NCBI GenBank assembly: GCA_003249035.1
Contig: QBMK01000031.1
Span: 1 to 64,000, forward strand
Reading direction: 5' to 3'
Origin: Pseudanabaena sp.
GTDB taxonomy: Bacteria; Cyanobacteriota; Cyanobacteriia; Pseudanabaenales; Pseudanabaenaceae
DNA: 64,000 nt
Made by a program: the position numbers and the translations under genes. Below, piece after piece: positions 27,689 to 35,760 of the stretch. The notes below the pieces were generated by a model. That model had not been told where the DNA came from and did not search any database. It was given only the letters and a program-made list of their open reading frames with translations. Within the stretch, counting starts at the first letter, position 1; each line of letters begins with the position of its first letter.

Positions 27689-30600
27689 CTACTTTTTACT
27701 TTCCAAAAGTTGTCTGTCGCTTTCAGAAACATTGGGGTTATTGGTGAGGTAAGGACGTAGCCAATCGCAGGCTTGAGAAATTGCGCGATTGTAGTCTATA
27801 TCCCATAATTTAATCGTATTATATTTGTGCTTATTGCTGGCAGAAGCAATCATTTTGCCGCTGGGTGAAAAGACTACACTCCGAAATGATTTGTAATCAA
27901 TATCCTCAATCGTAAGTAGTTCCTTGCCATCCAAATACCATAATTTGATAGTGTTGTTAAAACTACCAGATATTATCGTTTTCCCATCTGGAGAGAAGGC
28001 TACACTCACAACTCCACTACTATGACCATCGATAGTAAGAACTTCTTTACCTTGTAAATCCCACAATTTAATGGTGTTATCGTTACTGCCAGAGGCAATC
28101 ATTTTGCCATTAGGTGAGAATGCTACACTCAAAACTCCACTACTGTGACCATAAATAGTAAGAACTTTTTTACTTTCTAAATTCCATAATTTAATAGTGT
28201 TATCGTTACTGCCAGAAGCAATCATTTTTCCATTAGGTGAAAAGATAACGCTCCGAATTTCTTTATTATGACCGTTTAGGGTAAGTAGTTCTTTACCATC
28301 TAAATTCCATAATTTGAGTGTTTGATCAAAGCTACTAGAGACAATTTTTTTGCTGTCTGGGGAAAATGCTAAACTTAAAACCCCTCCGCTATGTCCATTA
28401 ATCGTAAGTAGTTCTTTACCTTTTAAGTTCCACAACTTAATTGTTTTGTCACTACTTCCAGAAACTATTGTTTGACCATCGGGTGAGAATATTACACTTC
28501 TAACATCCTCTGTATGCCCTTTAAAGGTAATTAATTCTCTCCCTTCAAGATCCCACAATTTTACAGTTTTATCAAAGCTACATGAGGCAATAGTTTTACT
28601 GTCAGGAGAAAATACTACACTCCAAATCTTCTCGTTGTGACCCTTGAAAATAGTACATTGTTCTCTATCTTTCAAGTTCCATAACTTGACTGTTTTGTCA
28701 TTACTTCCAGAAGCTATTGTTTGACCATCGGGGGAAAAAGCTACACTCCAAATTTTATTGCTATGACCTTCCAGTGTAAGAATTTCTTCACCTTCTAAAT
28801 TCCACAATTTTATTGTTTTATCGTCACTACTAGATAAAACTATTTTGCCATCAGGACTAAAGGAAACACTCCTAACTCCAGCATAATGACCTTTGAATAT
28901 GCGTAATTCTTGTCCTTCTAGATCCAACAATCTGATTGTATGATCATCAGATGCAGAGATAATATATTTACCGTTTGGAGCAAATGCCACGCTCAAGACT
29001 GCACCCATATGGCTTTTAAAAGTTAATAATTCTTTCCCTTCGAGATCCCATAACTTGATAGTTCTATCTAAGCTTCCAGAAGCAATCATTTTACCATCTG
29101 GAGAAAATGATAGGCTTCTAACTCCAGCATGATGTCCTTCACAAATAGATAGTTCTTTCCCTTCTAGATTCCATAATTTTATAGTCTTGTCAGCACTGCC
29201 AGAAGCAATAAGCTTACCATCTGGAGAAAATGCAACACTTCTTACTTCTTTGCTATGTCCCTTAAGAGTATATAATTCTTTACCTTCTAAGTTCCATAAT
29301 TTTAGTGTATTGTCAAAGCTTCCAGAAACTATAACTTTGTCATTTGGAGAAAATGCCACGCTTAAAACATCACTGGTATGACCTTTTAAGGTTCGTAATT
29401 CTTTACCTTGTAAATTCCATAATTTGATTGTTTTATCACCACTGCTAGAAATAATTATTTTGCCATCGTGACTAAATGCTACACTTCTGACCCAGTTACT
29501 ATGACCTTCAAGACAATTATATTCATAAATGTTGTGCGTAAATTTCCATAGCTGTCCAAAACTTTTCTTAGCTAGATATTCAGGAATTATTTTACTAGTG
29601 CTTGGACTAAGAATCCGTTGTCCAGCCTTCACTCCTGCTATCATGGCTTCAAGTTGATGATGTGCCAACCAGTAAGACTCGCAAGAGATACTCAAAGCTT
29701 CGATTTCGGCAATTTCTGCTCGTTGGAGTTCTTGTTCTTTATCTGCTAAAGCCGATCGCAATTGTTCTTTGGTCATTCGCAACTCTTCCGCCATACCAAA
29801 GACATACTTCTTCCGAATAAAGCTAACCAAATAATCATGAATCAACTGAAAGCGATCATCAGGCGAACTACTCACCCGAAAAGCAAGCCCAGAGCCAACG
29901 AGAACTGCTAGTACCAGCGAGAGATTTTCTGCTTCGTTGAGAGGTTCGATCCCCCTGCCTTCGTCATCCCCATTAAAAAGGGGGACTTGGCTTAACTCTT
30001 CTCCCCCCTTTATAAGGGGGACTGGGGGGGATCGAAACCCCAATCCATCGCCAGAAACCTCACCCAACAACTCACCAGCAAGCTCTGCTTGCGTCTTTTG
30101 CGGACGCTTCTCCTCATTCCCCGTCAACGCATACAACACCCTCTCCGCCAACTCCTGATTCGCCACCCCACAATCCCGCACCACATTCTCCAACCACCGC
30201 TCCACCAACACCTCACTCGGCTTGCGATGCGGATCGCTCGTTAAGGCAAGATACTGCTGAAGATTCGCGATCGGCGGAACCTCAGACTCCAACTGCGCCC
30301 CCACCACCTGCAACTCAATCGGCAAAATCCGCAACTGCTCACCACTCAAATCCGTCACAAGTCGCTCAATCAACTCAGGCTCCAAACGTAACTGCGATCG
30401 CTTAGTCAAAGCATCGATCACCTTTCGCGCCTGATCCTGCGTAAAATCCCCCAAATAATAACGCACCTGCTTACCGAGAATGTCATTCTCTACTTTCTCC
30501 AAATCCACAGCGCGATCGCATTCCAACAAATAATGCAGATAGTCCTCCCGCAGCGACAACACCACCCGCACAAAATCCGTATGCAAACAAGCCTTGAGAA

Positions 30601-32518
30601 ACTTGTAAAACGGCAGGCGATCGCGAAAATCTTCCTTCTTAAAAAAGAAATCTTCAAACTGATCGAAAATCAATACCGTCAAATAATTCTCATCGATATT
30701 CCGTTTGAAATGCTGAATCGGATCGAGATCGGGACGGCGATCGCCAAAATATTTTTGGAGCTTGTGTTTGACCGATCCACTCCAATCTTTGTAATCTTTG
30801 ATCGCAAAAACTAAAACCTTCCGCCCGTCAATTGTTCCCTTTGTGCGTAACGCAGGAACCAACCCACCACTAAGGATTGAGCTTTTCCCCGCCCCCGAAT
30901 CGCCATGAATTACTGTCAAGGGAAATCGCGCCTGACCGATGCGATCGGCCAAATTCTCCACATCCAGCATCCGCCCCGAAGCCTCAATCTCTTGAGCAAT
31001 GCTATCCGACTGATTCGCAACTTCTGTATATATATTTGGATTGTTCGCTTCCCGCTTAGGGTTCAGCGTACCCGCCCCAATAAATGCGCGTAGCCCATAC
31101 TGCTGCTCCACCGATCGCTGATGTTGCTTCGTCTCAAATGCTTCCAAATATAAACCTGCAGCGGTATAAAGCGATCTCAATTCCTCCAAAACCAACACAT
31201 AGATCTGCGCCTCATACTGATGATTCCAGCTAGCTCTTAAGGCTTCTAGTCTAGCGATCGCACCTTGGCGATCGCCCAATCCATCCAAGGCTTTTGCTAA
31301 CCATAGCTCATACTTCCCATAGACATACCGTTGTGAAAATGGAAAATTCGGTAGTTTTAGCGCTTCTCCTTCTCGATAAAGCCGCAATGCAGTCTCTGCC
31401 AACTCCCGCGCCGATGCATAGTCATGCTGCCAGAGTCTCACCGAGGCAAAGATTGCGCGATCGTGAGCCTCCCGCAATTGATTGGGATAGATTTTATGTA
31501 GTGCAAGTGCTTCTTGGACGAGAGCTTTTAGGCTCTCAATGGTTTCCCGACTCAACAAATCTTCCATTGTCGCTGTCAAAAAATTAATGTATTCCGCCAC
31601 CAAATCCCCACGTTCCAATTGGCGGAAAATTGCGAGACATTCCGTGAAATATTGCTGTGACGAAAGATAAAATATCTCCTTGTCAAAACGATGACGCAGA
31701 GCTTGGCTGCGATCGCACATTCCTAATTGCAACAGACAAACCGCCTGCTTGAGTTGATTCTTACCCCGCCAAATCGCGAGACTTTTCTCAAATAGTTCCT
31801 TCGCCAAATCAAGTTGCGACTCAGCAAACGCAATACAACCAAAAGCAAAATCAAGATTTGCTCTCAGTTCTTCATCTATTTCTATTTCTTGAATCTCCAA
31901 CTCCGAGATCGCCGTCTTTAGCTCAAACTGTTGCAACCGATCGGCGATCGCTGTACGTATCGATTCACGTTTGCGAACATCCTGAAAGCGCTCGAACATC
32001 TCCTCTGTCGAGGCTTGCACTAGCAGCTTTAGCTCCACAGGCTCCAACCGAAACTCAATCGCCCCCGCCGTAGTCCAGTTCGCCAGATCGCTTGCCTCAC
32101 GGGTGAGGATGTCCTGAGTGCGATCGCTCAACCATAGGATCATCGGAAATTCTAAACAATTCGCAAATTCCTCGCGTACTCGATTTGCTGACTTTAAAAC
32201 CGCTTCAATTTCTTTGACCGCATCTAATCCTAAAACCATCAGAACTTTTGGCTTTTGCTCTGACGGCGAATGATACACCATTTTAATTAATTCTTGAATT
32301 GGAGTCAGCAAAGTCTTAGCATCTGTTTCCAATTCGAGAATAGCGATTGCTGTTTCGGGCAATCCCTGAGCCGAAAGTCGCGATCGCAAGTCCTGCAACA
32401 CCCGCTTTTGCAATACGCGATAATTACATAAAACGATCGACAATGAAAATCCCTGCGCTAGCTGGACAATGCGCGTTAACCGCTTCAAAGCTTTTTGATT
32501 AATATCGGCAACACTCAT
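27689..32518 (-). CDS. nSTAND-type NTPase with 14 WD40 repeats
   Basis: 1609 aa from MSVADINQ at 32518; the extra 25 residues up to 32593 translate a repeat element and are rejected. Residues 1-165 form an alpha/beta domain resembling a P-loop-less AAA module, and 210-470 are TPR-like helices. The nSTAND1 NTPase follows, with Walker A GDSGAGKSS at 539-547 and Walker B LIFDQFEDF at 616-624. A coiled region (905-945) leads to 14 WD40 units from about 1003 (LxGHxxxVxSVAFSPDGK), enough for two seven-bladed propellers. The family senses ligands and signals by oligomerising. It follows the 434-aa ATPase gene on the same strand. Confidence 0.88.
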   Translation of the reverse strand: MSVADINQKALKRLTRIVQLAQGFSLSIVLCNYRVLQKRVLQDLRSRLSAQGLPETAIAILELETDAKTLLTPIQELIKMVYHSPSEQKPKVLMVLGLDAVKEIEAVLKSANRVREEFANCLEFPMILWLSDRTQDILTREASDLANWTTAGAIEFRLEPVELKLLVQASTEEMFERFQDVRKRESIRTAIADRLQQFELKTAISELEIQEIEIDEELRANLDFAFGCIAFAESQLDLAKELFEKSLAIWRGKNQLKQAVCLLQLGMCDRSQALRHRFDKEIFYLSSQQYFTECLAIFRQLERGDLVAEYINFLTATMEDLLSRETIESLKALVQEALALHKIYPNQLREAHDRAIFASVRLWQHDYASARELAETALRLYREGEALKLPNFPFSQRYVYGKYELWLAKALDGLGDRQGAIARLEALRASWNHQYEAQIYVLVLEELRSLYTAAGLYLEAFETKQHQRSVEQQYGLRAFIGAGTLNPKREANNPNIYTEVANQSDSIAQEIEASGRMLDVENLADRIGQARFPLTVIHGDSGAGKSSILSGGLVPALRTKGTIDGRKVLVFAIKDYKDWSGSVKHKLQKYFGDRRPDLDPIQHFKRNIDENYLTVLIFDQFEDFFFKKEDFRDRLPFYKFLKACLHTDFVRVVLSLREDYLHYLLECDRAVDLEKVENDILGKQVRYYLGDFTQDQARKVIDALTKRSQLRLEPELIERLVTDLSGEQLRILPIELQVVGAQLESEVPPIANLQQYLALTSDPHRKPSEVLVERWLENVVRDCGVANQELAERVLYALTGNEEKRPQKTQAELAGELLGEVSGDGLGFRSPPVPLIKGGEELSQVPLFNGDDEGRGIEPLNEAENLSLVLAVLVGSGLAFRVSSSPDDRFQLIHDYLVSFIRKKYVFGMAEELRMTKEQLRSALADKEQELQRAEIAEIEALSISCESYWLAHHQLEAMIAGVKAGQRILSPSTSKIIPEYLAKKSFGQLWKFTHNIYEYNCLEGHSNWVRSVAFSHDGKIIISSSGDKTIKLWNLQGKELRTLKGHTSDVLSVAFSPNDKVIVSGSFDNTLKLWNLEGKELYTLKGHSKEVRSVAFSPDGKLIASGSADKTIKLWNLEGKELSICEGHHAGVRSLSFSPDGKMIASGSLDRTIKLWDLEGKELLTFKSHMGAVLSVAFAPNGKYIISASDDHTIRLLDLEGQELRIFKGHYAGVRSVSFSPDGKIVLSSSDDKTIKLWNLEGEEILTLEGHSNKIWSVAFSPDGQTIASGSNDKTVKLWNLKDREQCTIFKGHNEKIWSVVFSPDSKTIASCSFDKTVKLWDLEGRELITFKGHTEDVRSVIFSPDGQTIVSGSSDKTIKLWNLKGKELLTINGHSGGVLSLAFSPDSKKIVSSSFDQTLKLWNLDGKELLTLNGHNKEIRSVIFSPNGKMIASGSNDNTIKLWNLESKKVLTIYGHSSGVLSVAFSPNGKMIASGSNDNTIKLWDLQGKEVLTIDGHSSGVVSVAFSPDGKTIISGSFNNTIKLWYLDGKELLTIEDIDYKSFRSVVFSPSGKMIASASNKHKYNTIKLWDIDYNRAISQACDWLRPYLTNNPNVSESDRQLLESKK
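29946..30035. repeat. 90-bp repeat inserted in frame in the nSTAND gene
   Basis: TCGATCCCCC (29946-29955) and GGGGGATCGA (30026-30035) are perfect 10-bp inverted ends. The interior carries the CCCCCTTTATAAGGGGG-type palindrome common in cyanobacterial genomes. It encodes about 30 residues (SPPVPLIKGGEELSQVP and beyond) at protein positions about 828-858, between the ATPase and the coiled region. 90 bp is 30 codons exactly, so the frame is kept. Confidence 0.8.
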
Positions 32519-32564
32519 AATTTTTGTCTGTTTATAGGTCAGCAAAAGAAAACTGTGAATGACC

Positions 32565-32630
32565 AGATCCCCGACTTTTTTAGTGACTAGCAAAACTGAT
32601 CTCTGATTGCAAAGAAAAAGTCGGGGATCT
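32565..32630. repeat. 66-bp inverted-repeat element in the nSTAND leader
   Basis: AGATCCCCGACTTTTT (32565-32580) is perfectly complementary to 32615-32630, with a 34-base interior. It lies between the ATPase gene stop (32660) and the nSTAND start (32518). As RNA it would be a stable hairpin that may act as terminator or attenuator between the two genes. Confidence 0.8.
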
Positions 32631-32659
32631 TAAACTTTGCATCTTTAGTTTATTTATGA

Positions 32660-33964
32660 CTAACTACTTAGCTTACTAGCCAAAATTGGATTTACATCAA
32701 ACCAGCCTTCATTTTGATATTCATACTCAAATACAAATTTGCTCCTGATTAGAGTCTGGTATTCAGATTCTCCACTCAATTGTTTATCTTTATGTACTTT
32801 CCTAATCAATGTCCACTCATCCACAGTGATTTTTTTGATGAGACTGTTCCGTTCCGATGCTATCGTATCCTCTAATAATTCCCTCGTAATTGGTGGATCT
32901 TCTTGTTGCAAGCAAGCTGATAGTAATCTAAACAAATCACGAACATGACCACCACTAACTTGACATAGGCGATCAAGGGTTTGCGAATTGTCAAAAACCT
33001 TGGTGACTAACTCATCATTAACACGCTGTACAGGATTAGCCGACGGAAAAGCCCTAGACATGACAATTTGCCTTAACAAAGCCATACCTGTAGCGCACTC
33101 GCCACCATCTGCCAAACTCGTAGGAATCATTGGTAAGGTTTTAATTTGAGTCCCAAAACGATCCTCAACGATCGCTGCATCATTGGAAAAAGTAAGCAAA
33201 AATGGAACCGTATATAAAACATGACATTTAAGTTCGCGCAGATCGCTGCGTTCTACAAATAAATAACCAGCCTTGTTGCGGTCTTTTTCATCAATACGAT
33301 TTTCAATGCGATCAAGGTTATCGACAATAACCACAAGTCCCTTCATTCCTTGGGATTGTAACTGGCGCTTGGCAGGCTCTAGTAACTCGTCATTAATCGC
33401 ATTAATGATTTTAGATATCCGTGATTCGAGTCTTTCTCTGATTTGTCTTCTTATAGAATCGTTCTTTTTGGATTGTGCGGTGATCTCGGCAATTCCGAGT
33501 GAAAGCTTGAAATTTACCCCAAAGTCCACTGGCGATTGCAATAAATCTTTTAATTCTCCCAGTATCTTTTTGAGTGTTTCAGGGGTTTTCATGATAACGT
33601 TTTTAGACTCAAGACTATTGCTAATTTGACCTGCGATCGCTAGCAACACATCACTCACCGCAACATCAGCCAACTCTAGAACGCGATCGCTCTCAAAGTA
33701 AACCACATGAAACTTTTGCTGTTCTAATAAATATTTCAATCGCAAGAGTTCCGTTGACTTTCCACAACCAATCCGCCCTGTAAATAATTGGCAGGTTGCT
33801 TTGTCAGGTGATAGTGTGGTAATTTGCCTTTCCATCCCCTGAAGCAGCCTAGCTCCTCTCACCTTTGAAAGATCGACATAGTAGTTACGTTCCGCTTCAA
33901 TGGCTGAATTCACAGGAAGCATGGGATTACAGGCATTATAAAATCGAGAAAGTTCGAGATCCAT
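32660..33964 (-). CDS. P-loop ATPase, upstream partner of the nSTAND-WD40 protein
   Basis: 434 aa. Walker A GRIGCGKST at 63-71, Walker B LVVIVDNLDR at 210-219, and a sensor-like GGHVRDLFRLL near residue 345 followed by a winged-helix-like C-terminus. The layout is that of KAP/ORC-like AAA+ ATPases of the STAND clade. No membrane or effector domain is seen. The N-terminus (MDLELSRFYNACNPMLPV) lacks any signal. It is 141 bp upstream of the nSTAND-WD40 gene on the same strand, and I have seen similar ATPase plus repeat-protein pairs in cyanobacteria. A conflict or stress-signalling role is inference. Confidence 0.75.
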   Translation of the reverse strand: MDLELSRFYNACNPMLPVNSAIEAERNYYVDLSKVRGARLLQGMERQITTLSPDKATCQLFTGRIGCGKSTELLRLKYLLEQQKFHVVYFESDRVLELADVAVSDVLLAIAGQISNSLESKNVIMKTPETLKKILGELKDLLQSPVDFGVNFKLSLGIAEITAQSKKNDSIRRQIRERLESRISKIINAINDELLEPAKRQLQSQGMKGLVVIVDNLDRIENRIDEKDRNKAGYLFVERSDLRELKCHVLYTVPFLLTFSNDAAIVEDRFGTQIKTLPMIPTSLADGGECATGMALLRQIVMSRAFPSANPVQRVNDELVTKVFDNSQTLDRLCQVSGGHVRDLFRLLSACLQQEDPPITRELLEDTIASERNSLIKKITVDEWTLIRKVHKDKQLSGESEYQTLIRSKFVFEYEYQNEGWFDVNPILASKLSS

Positions 33965-34029
33965 ATTTGAATTAATCGACGACTGAGCATGTCCTGATTA
34001 TTCACTATTGTAAGTCATCATCCACATCC

Positions 34030-34240
34030 CTGCGCTCAAGTGCGGGCTAAAAGCTCAAGTCTGCTGAAGCAGACTAAGAAATAATCGATCTCCAAAATAT
34101 TGCTGCGGGCTTTGCCCACAGCAATATTTTGGGGTTTTATATAAATCATTTTTTCTTGTAATGCCCTAGGCCACTTCAGTGGACTAGGGCTGTAAGCCCT
34201 GCAATTGAGTGGAGGGCTCACAAACATACTAATGCTATGA
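34030..34240. repeat. Cluster of short hairpin repeats
   Basis: Four adjacent stem-loops: AAGTCTGCTGAAGCAGACT; the 34092-34132 palindrome (19-bp arms, TTT loop, one mismatch); CCTAGGCCACTTCAGTGGACTAGG; and GGGCTGTAAGCCC. These match the short GCCACT/AGTGGC type hairpins scattered in many cyanobacterial genomes. They fill the gap between the ATPase gene (minus) and the riboswitch (plus), so the promoter of the riboswitch transcript must be among or just after them. Confidence 0.7.
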
Positions 34241-34249
34241 TGTGACATC

Positions 34250-34375
34250 AGCTTTCGGGTTTAGTGAGAAGCATTCACTAAAAGTAATGGGGAAAGATTG
34301 GTGCAAATCCAACGCTGTCCCGCAACTGTGATTTTCTGCCCATCAGCAGAAACAGTCAGAACACCCGCCGAAATC
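34250..34375 (+). promoter_or_regulatory. Cobalamin (adenosylcobalamin) riboswitch
   Basis: The conserved core is clear: GGTGCAAATCC at 34300-34310, then GCTGTCCCGCAACTGTGA at 34314-34331, and AACAGTCAGAACACCCGCC at 34351-34369. The outer stem pairs TTTCGGGT (34253-34260) with the ACCCG-CC-GAAA region (34363-34373). The 149-aa gene starts 39 bp after it with GAGG at 34404-34407, so the switch is probably translational or transcriptional control of that gene by B12. No other B12 gene is visible in the window. Confidence 0.92.
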
Positions 34376-34413
34376 TATATCGAATCCATTAATCTACATC
34401 TACGAGGTAATAG

Positions 34414-34863
34414 ATGAAGCTAAAAGATAGCGACTGGCAAGGAAACTTTGGCTATTGGCAAAAAGGTTTTATTCACTCAAACCTAATGATGATCGGCTAT
34501 TCCGCATGGTTAGGCTTTTTGCAGCATGGTCGCGGAGTCGTTATTTGTGATGTCGATCGCAGTGCGATCGCTCCCAGCAACACAGGATTAGAGGTAACTC
34601 AATTCAAATCTCAATTTATTGCTGAACAAGAATTAATCACTTCGATTCAGTCTTTTTCTTTGGATCAAGAATTGATTGCCGTGCTTGTACAAGCAGTGAG
34701 TAATTACGCTCCAGACAAAGAGATTGTTCTACTCATAAAAATGGAGCATCACCTCGAAATCAATCTTTTTCAAAATCTGAAGATTTTTCCTCCAGATTGT
34801 TACGCCCAAGTCAGCCGTCGTTGGGAAGAGTTTCAGCCTTGTTTAGAAACACATATTAAATGA
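34414..34863 (+). CDS. Unknown protein directly under the cobalamin riboswitch
   Basis: 149 aa. No family recognised. The sequence (MKLKDSDWQGNFGYWQKGFI; then GYSAWLGFLQHGRGVVICDV) has no signal peptide and no membrane segment; one central hydrophobic patch and a Cys-Asp pair (VICDVDRSAI) are the only notable features. GAGG precedes the ATG by 6 bases. Its position behind a B12 riboswitch suggests that it is made when cobalamin is scarce, for example as a B12-independent substitute or part of B12 handling. That is inference from position only. Confidence 0.7.
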   Translation: MKLKDSDWQGNFGYWQKGFIHSNLMMIGYSAWLGFLQHGRGVVICDVDRSAIAPSNTGLEVTQFKSQFIAEQELITSIQSFSLDQELIAVLVQAVSNYAPDKEIVLLIKMEHHLEINLFQNLKIFPPDCYAQVSRRWEEFQPCLETHIK

Positions 34864-34953
34864 GTTCTCGCAGAGTTCAAATTGGATAAGCGATTGTACA
34901 ATTTAATCAATATGGTTAATATATTGCCAATATAAGCTTTCTCGAGGGATTTT

Positions 34954-35760
34954 ATGCTTAAGCCAGCAATTGCTTACTTTAAGTCATTAGTAACTATTTG
35001 CTTACTTGTCTATTTCAGCTTTGTGACATTTGTTAGTCCCGCACAAGCTGGTAAGTTTATGGCTTCACTACCTTTTGATACTTCGACTAATGTTATTGAG
35101 GTTGCAGCTATCTATGAAACTTCCTACACAACCCAGAAAGCCATTGTCAAGTCCCTCAAGGTAAGCAATAAGCCCATGAAAAAGGCTTTAGGGTTTAAAG
35201 GATTTTCACTCCTACAAAGCCAAGATGGCAAACAAGTGATTGCACTCTCTCAATGGAACGATCTAGACAGCTATCAGGCTTACATTCCAGCTTCAGCCAC
35301 GGTCACTACTAGCAAGTCCAAAAGTCCAGATGGTGCAGTCACGATTCCAGAACCTAGTCAAACTCAAATATTTGAGATTGTGTCTGCCAAGACTTCGATC
35401 TCAGGAGCTATTCCTGCATTGCGCGGTAAAGAAGCCGTAGTCCGATTTACTCAACTAACGCCCAAAAGTCCTGAAATGCGATCGCAAGTTTTGACTAATC
35501 TTGAGGAGATGATTTCATCTACTATGCAAAATCAACCTATTCCTCAATCAGTGATTGTATTGAAAAGCTTGGATAGTGACGACGTGGCAATAATGACGAA
35601 TTGGAACTGTAGCGCTATGTTTGAAGATGTTGGAAAACCTGAAGCGATCGCACTAAGCAGTAGTCTAAACGAATTAGTAGACAACAAACAGAGCATTTAC
35701 AATGTTATGACCATTATCCCTTATGAAGTCAAAAAGGATAAAGAGAGCAAAAAAGACTAG
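34954..35760 (+). CDS. Exported double ABM-fold protein (antibiotic biosynthesis monooxygenase-like)
   Basis: 268 aa with a signal peptide ending near SPAQA (about residue 31). The mature part holds two ferredoxin-like ABM segments: one with KKALGFKGFSLLQSQDGKQV and then VIALSQWNDLDSYQAY, and one with VVRFTQLTPKSPEMRSQVL and VAIMTNWNCSAMFEDV. The ABM fold serves cofactor-free monooxygenases and haem-degrading enzymes, but the catalytic Trp/Asn set is not evident here. It starts 90 bp after the riboswitch gene on the same strand and could share its transcript. Role unknown. Confidence 0.7.
   Translation: MLKPAIAYFKSLVTICLLVYFSFVTFVSPAQAGKFMASLPFDTSTNVIEVAAIYETSYTTQKAIVKSLKVSNKPMKKALGFKGFSLLQSQDGKQVIALSQWNDLDSYQAYIPASATVTTSKSKSPDGAVTIPEPSQTQIFEIVSAKTSISGAIPALRGKEAVVRFTQLTPKSPEMRSQVLTNLEEMISSTMQNQPIPQSVIVLKSLDSDDVAIMTNWNCSAMFEDVGKPEAIALSSSLNELVDNKQSIYNVMTIIPYEVKKDKESKKD

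Follow-up and report, generated by a model that had tools for sequence, protein, structure and literature searches.

A cobalamin riboswitch precedes a gene of an unnamed protein family with a predicted CcmS fold in Pseudanabaena and other cyanobacteria

Results

A complete cobalamin riboswitch aptamer lies upstream of a 149-aa gene

The window, which is the whole stretch of 64,000 nucleotides analysed here, represents one contig of a 4.55-Mb Pseudanabaena genome. Searching the window with Rfam yielded two matches, one tRNA and one cobalamin riboswitch aptamer (RF00174). The aptamer is located at positions 34240–34386 on the plus strand and scores 47.9 bits (E 6.8e-09), against a curated gathering score of 31.5 bits. 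It is complete, spanning model positions 1–189 of 189, and was recovered again when the whole genome was searched with RF00174. A first-pass annotation of this DNA had proposed a well-formed B12 riboswitch core upstream of the gene, which the full-length match confirms. An aptamer is likewise found 5′ of all 12 congener orthologues that are more than 70% identical to the downstream protein.

The open reading frame of this protein (149 aa; 34414–34863, plus strand) begins 28 bp after the end of the aptamer. A Pfam search identified no family up to E 1, and NCBIfam returned weak matches only, namely PRK14179 and the beta-carboxysome assembly chaperone CcmS (NF049993), the latter with 14.5 bits compared to an equivalog cut-off of 125 bits. 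The same holds for the protein together with its 26 relatives in our alignment, for which no convincing Pfam or NCBIfam family was found and the weak matches point to unrelated functions. The earlier description of the protein as belonging to no recognised family thus stands, and none of the Pfam or NCBIfam matches identifies it as a known B12-transport component or a B12-independent isozyme. The nearest named relatives are from Pseudanabaena biceps PCC 7429, P. frigida and other Pseudanabaena (74 to 92% identity); one record named Phormidium tenue is 90% identical.

Altogether, the genome contains three B12 riboswitches. The second precedes a second copy of the family, which is 39% identical to the 149-aa protein (C12:30575), and the third precedes a 240-aa protein that we take to be a HupE/UreJ-like metal transporter. 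The B12-dependent methionine synthase MetH is encoded in the genome, and MetE, the B12-independent one, was not found. A search for class II ribonucleotide reductase gave no TIGR02504 match in this genome, a result of little weight since the search also missed one of the controls, Synechococcus elongatus.

The next gene downstream (34954–35760, plus strand) encodes a protein of 268 aa and starts 90 bp after the end of the 149-aa frame. It had been annotated as an exported protein of the ABM fold. The spacing is correct, but the match to PF03992 (ABM) is below threshold (20.9 bits, gathering score 23.1), and the protein is apparently exported, judged by eye from the look of its N-terminus. On the left flank, the minus strand (27689–33964) codes for a 1634-aa WD40-type repeat protein and a 434-aa AAA-type NTPase, an arrangement kept in two congeners. 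A scan for promoters and terminators in 33950–35050 was uninformative, since it gave fewer matches than shuffled sequence.

A conserved hairpin could mask the start of the gene

Between the aptamer and the gene, a hairpin is formed by positions 34397–34416 of the plus strand, according to sequence and folding. Its arms are CAUCUA (34397–34402) and UAGAUG (34411–34416), and the loop reads CGAGGUAA. The Shine-Dalgarno sequence GAGG (34404–34407) is located in the loop and the start codon AUG of the 149-aa gene (34414–34416) in the 3′ arm. The exact loop core CGAGGT occurs close to the end of the aptamer or beyond it at 82 of the 91 family loci with an upstream riboswitch. Among the 84 loci with CGAGG(T/C)A, all six arm pairs are possible in 70 and at least five in 79. 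The loop is closed by G-C in 68 of these loci, by G-U in ten and by A-U in six, and at the outer end of the stem four loci have U-A in place of C-G. The hairpin is thus an expression platform that is able to mask the gene start and that is conserved with compensating changes across loci. It would correspond to the regulatory hairpin L13 of other cobalamin riboswitches.

Because the Shine-Dalgarno sequence lies in the loop and the AUG in the stem, control is likely to be at the level of translation. The element would then be an OFF riboswitch: a corrinoid (B12 or pseudo-B12) in the aptamer would keep the hairpin closed and thereby hide the ribosome-binding site and the start codon, and when corrinoid is scarce the hairpin would open and the 149-aa protein would be translated. 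Control at the level of transcription is also conceivable; passages of a review describe the riboswitch of Synechococcus PCC 73109 as transcriptional (PMC7007895).

At many other loci (L031 to L121) the AUG of the hairpin does not start the family gene itself. It starts a leader frame of about 18 to 62 codons, which runs into the next gene or stops shortly before it; a 16-bp overlap is seen at several loci and recurs in several Pseudanabaena copies. Such a short leader frame may be a translational-coupling device or code for a small protein.

The family and the riboswitch occur together across the class

To define the family we built a profile from 27 members, which had been gathered by protein similarity and not by riboswitch; the loci of these members were known to have riboswitches before the linkage was counted. 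With this profile, members were found in at least 118 of 388 genomes and at least 55 of 160 genera of the class, the 388 genomes being our sample of it. For the riboswitch scan we used the 97 of these family genomes with a match of E 1e-30 or better (referred to as strong), a threshold that was chosen after inspection of the match table. These genomes are not independent of each other.

All 97 genomes contain RF00174 matches, 275 in total. At 112 of the 122 strong family places the 4 kb upstream contain a riboswitch in the same orientation as the gene, and at three more there is one within 10 kb, whereas about 0.13 of the 122 would be expected by chance to have one within 4 kb. A riboswitch on the opposite strand within 4 kb was found at none of the 122 places, and one downstream on the same strand, again within 4 kb, at four. 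Riboswitch, hairpin and gene are retained jointly in the congeners and, as a family, across the class, so that their association exceeds chance. The homologue search bears out the linkage suspected from the window alone.

Ten strong places are without a riboswitch within 4 kb. Three of these (in G056, G072 and G208) are the ones located 5.6 to 6.3 kb downstream of a riboswitch, which leaves seven with none within 10 kb in the sequence at hand. Five of the seven are in three genomes with a contig that ends soon upstream: G086 and G184 have two such places each, after a MetE fragment at the contig start, and the place in G217 is 0.7 kb from the contig end. In G242 no riboswitch match was found in the roughly 3.2 kb of upstream sequence present. 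G260 is the one clear exception, with no riboswitch in the 12 kb examined (G260:C4:35000-47000). The member encoded there is plasmid-borne, and the same stretch contains a group II intron match.

Some loci carry two family genes in tandem. All 21 second copies of these pairs fall into one clade of 30 rows (SH-aLRT 98) that contains no first copy; the window protein is located outside this clade. If two old lineages (type 1 and type 2) have been retained side by side, the pairs would suit a heterodimer. A third group, of proteins about 156 aa long, comes from the same genus; its relationship to the family is weak, and it has the motif AW-x-GY...GRGA (L044:3337-3807, L045:3608-4111 and L046:3792-4262); an NCBIfam search with one of them gave no match.

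The predicted fold is that of CcmS

AlphaFold2 models were calculated from 27 and from 82 family sequences, with mean pLDDT values of 80.7 and 82.7, respectively. In a Foldseek search against the PDB each model had two matches below 0.001, both of which are CcmS: 9iur (1.2e-06 and 5.7e-07) and 8zlh (3.5e-05 for both models). The next, unrelated matches were at 0.045 and 0.078. VIA-align gave the same result: the Z scores for CcmS were 9.1 and 9.1 with the first model and 9.6 and 9.5 with the second, in alignments of 115 to 121 residues, and the next chain reached 3.9 and 4.5. Folds other than CcmS were discarded on these values (Z at most 4.5, Foldseek E at least 0.045). Both models hence match one and the same solved fold, with moderate TM-scores of 0.48 to 0.65.

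Comparisons at the sequence level point to a distant relationship. Aligning the family with 12 CcmS sequences by hhalign resulted in probabilities of 89.6 and 94.1. In a search of PDB sequences with the family profile the best match was the CcmS protein Slr1911 itself, with an insignificant E of 0.35. NF049993 matches 11 of the 27 members at E 1 or better, the best at E 0.006. The family and CcmS have the (Y/H)xPxxE and P-x-x-C columns in common as well as the order of helices and strands, and they are of similar length (138 model positions in CcmS, 149 aa in the window protein).

CcmS has been described, in passages of its structural study, as a monomer of five helices and four strands that forms a homodimer and binds the C-terminal tail of the shell protein CcmK1, with contacts that include H57, F58 and Y60 in a PHF-x-x-CP stretch (PMC11635287). 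PHFVxCP is also the consensus of our 12 CcmS sequences, and it has no counterpart in the consensus or the profile of the family. When we mapped the contacts with the CcmK1 tail (D51, H57, F58 and Y60 in Nostoc numbering; the mapping is our own), they were not found in the family, with the possible exception of D51, to which D46 of the window protein would correspond. The window protein is far below the CcmS cut-off and the CcmK1-contact motif is absent; therefore it is not CcmS itself. The family differs from CcmS also in being under a B12 riboswitch and in occurring beside CcmS in some genomes, among them G059 and G073. We conclude that the family is a remote relative of CcmS with, as modelled, a CcmS fold, and is not CcmS. 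A common fold proves no function.

Operon partners vary between lineages

The gene runs behind the riboswitch were surveyed at 96 loci including the window, leaving out six of the 12 congener orthologues, which lie on short loci of about 3.4 kb. Gene calls were the longest open frames without curation, and partner types were assigned from the Pfam and NCBIfam matches of cluster representatives. The most frequent partner is DUF1636 (37 loci), followed by a SAM methyltransferase (31), MetE (25), desaturases of two kinds (18 and 13), COG0523/CobW (14; a presumed label, assigned from the sequence) and a CMAS-type methyltransferase (6). No recognised partner is present in ten runs, and 56 of the 96 have neither DUF1636 nor COG0523. 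The family gene is the first of the run at 53 places and directly follows MetE at 24, often with a 16-bp overlap. Conservation applies to the riboswitch and the family gene, while the accompanying genes vary: the constant parts of these operons are the protein and the riboswitch, and the enzymes differ by lineage.

MetE was found in 38 of the 388 genomes. A strong family member is encoded in 23 of these 38 and in 74 of the 350 genomes without MetE (odds ratio 5.7, Fisher p 9e-07; the genomes are not independent). When the presence of MetE was mapped onto a tree of 116 family proteins, at least 20 changes were needed, compared to a mean of 30.9 and a minimum of 25 in 200 shuffles. Because this is fewer than in the shuffles and still at least 20, partners seem to be inherited for a time yet often exchanged.

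At two loci (L038 and L040) family genes flank a pair of other genes on both sides. The pair (L040:6180-8306, minus strand, and its equivalent in L038) is located between metE with its family gene and a second family copy, all behind one B12 riboswitch, and codes for a 465-aa ribonucleotide-reductase-like protein with a partial barrel-domain match only and a 239-aa protein without Pfam or NCBIfam match.

The 268-aa protein of the window has no relative in the gene runs of the other 95 loci, its cluster (c61) being of size 1 among the 96, and the shorter loci of the congeners likewise contained none. Two congener loci (L116 and L117) are syntenic with the window in the left flank, that is the NTPase and the WD40 protein, and there the gene after the family member encodes a methyltransferase. 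A search for this methyltransferase elsewhere in the window genome gave a weak match only (E 6.7e-4, 26% identity). The ABM-like gene is thus probably an accidental neighbour and not part of the system.

A metE operon of Picosynechococcus contains the family

On plasmids of Picosynechococcus PCC 73109 and PCC 7117 a cobalamin riboswitch precedes metE, and the family gene is annotated as hypothetical protein. The gene run in PCC 73109 consists of metE, the family member, a desaturase, a methyltransferase and an FAD-hydroxylase. It resembles the window in combining an RF00174 aptamer with a family member; unlike there, the family gene of the window comes first after the riboswitch, in a genome without MetE. 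The metE cobalamin riboswitch of PCC 73109 has reportedly been tested in vivo, by Perez et al. in 2016. Passages of a review describe an OFF cobalamin riboswitch of Synechococcus PCC 73109 with a 6-fold range and assign it to MetH (PMC7007895), which conflicts with the metE gene that we see behind it. In Limnospira under gamma irradiation the cobalamin riboswitch and metE rise together, according to passages that make no mention of the family (PMC8400943).

On the same Picosynechococcus plasmids a c-di-AMP riboswitch adjoins the metE riboswitch, upstream of genes of the nitrate-transport type (L209:2575-2738 and L210:2599-2762, minus strand).

Discussion

Communities to which cyanobacteria belong are shaped by the supply of B12, and the regulons of B12 riboswitches are a readout of the genes that matter when B12 is short. 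B12 riboswitches, the control of metE and the CcmS fold are already known; new is an unnamed family with a predicted CcmS fold that is tied to the B12 response. In the genomes that carry the family, about one third of the B12 riboswitches (97 of 275) are followed within 10 kb by a family gene to which no other upstream riboswitch is closer. One of the major outputs of this response therefore seems to have gone undescribed in the open-licence literature, where we found no description of a CcmS-fold family tied to the B12 response and no paper on Slr1911, DUF1636 with cobalamin, COG5469 or B12-limitation transcriptomes. The family thus appears to be a common part of the cyanobacterial response to B12 shortage.

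We propose that the 149-aa protein would be a small soluble protein of the CcmS fold, probably a dimer like CcmS, with an adaptor or chaperone role when B12 is scarce. As the protein is constant while the operon enzymes vary by lineage, it would most likely serve a client shared by all carriers and not one neighbouring enzyme. In our judgement the chances for such a starvation-induced adaptor or chaperone are evenly balanced: the CcmK1 motif is absent, the CcmS sequence scores are weak, and G260 encodes a member without riboswitch. More tentatively, the family could be a general cyanobacterial B12-starvation adaptor, often present as a type-1/type-2 pair and among the commonest targets of B12 riboswitches; it would either remodel a housekeeping enzyme that needs B12 or cobalt, MetH for instance, or recruit the replacement enzymes of the respective lineage. 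If true, the CcmS fold would serve cofactor economy in addition to carboxysome assembly. Our findings also suggest that this fold is shared by a broader group of small adaptor proteins.

The recurrence of DUF1636, a thioredoxin-like ferredoxin relative, and of COG0523 metal chaperones in the operons raises the question whether the protein itself handles corrinoid or cobalt, by capture, movement or re-allocation under shortage. Both partners have riboswitch operons in common with the family, to which they are unrelated in sequence, and a presumed metal transporter follows the third riboswitch of the window genome. In at least 90% of the 82 members aligned, a cysteine is kept at each of two positions, C45 and C129. 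These cysteines are not invariant, though, and CcmS has an equivalent of C129 that may play a structural part there. No histidine column reaches the same 90% level of conservation, and most gene runs have neither partner. We consider corrinoid or cobalt handling rather unlikely. True cobW orthologues of cyanobacteria are not under B12 riboswitches according to passages of Haas et al. (2009; PMC2770081), so that the COG0523 genes in the family operons may belong to other COG0523 subfamilies.

The position of the family gene directly behind metE, the enrichment of the family in MetE genomes and the ribonucleotide-reductase-like gene added at two loci would fit a dedicated chaperone for MetE or for B12-independent isozymes generally. 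As a general role this was rejected, because 74 of the 97 strong-family genomes are without MetE. That of the window is one of them, having MetH and no MetE, so that the protein does not serve MetE alone. Conversely, a strong family member is lacking in 15 of the 38 genomes with MetE. A MetE or isozyme chaperone is thus improbable. Still less probable is a B12-regulated carboxysome chaperone that acts on CcmK shell proteins as CcmS does. CcmS is indeed the only solved fold that stands out, but the stretch with the CcmK1 contacts is absent, which disfavours this role, and some genomes encode CcmS in addition to the family. No carboxysome genes were recognised among the recurring neighbour clusters, which were typed by representatives only, and we know of no link between carboxysomes and B12.

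The first-pass annotation was right about a genuine B12 riboswitch that controls an unrecognised protein, a link that is conserved, but the B12-linked pair that it added, with one partner in the cytoplasm and the other exported, is scarcely credible: the two genes share a strand and a 90-bp gap in which no terminator-like site was found, and yet the ABM-like gene is missing from all other loci and replaced by a methyltransferase in the syntenic congeners.

Upstream of the riboswitch, the intergenic region 34040–34225 of the window contains several short inverted repeats, as seen by eye, and may represent a mobile or repetitive element.
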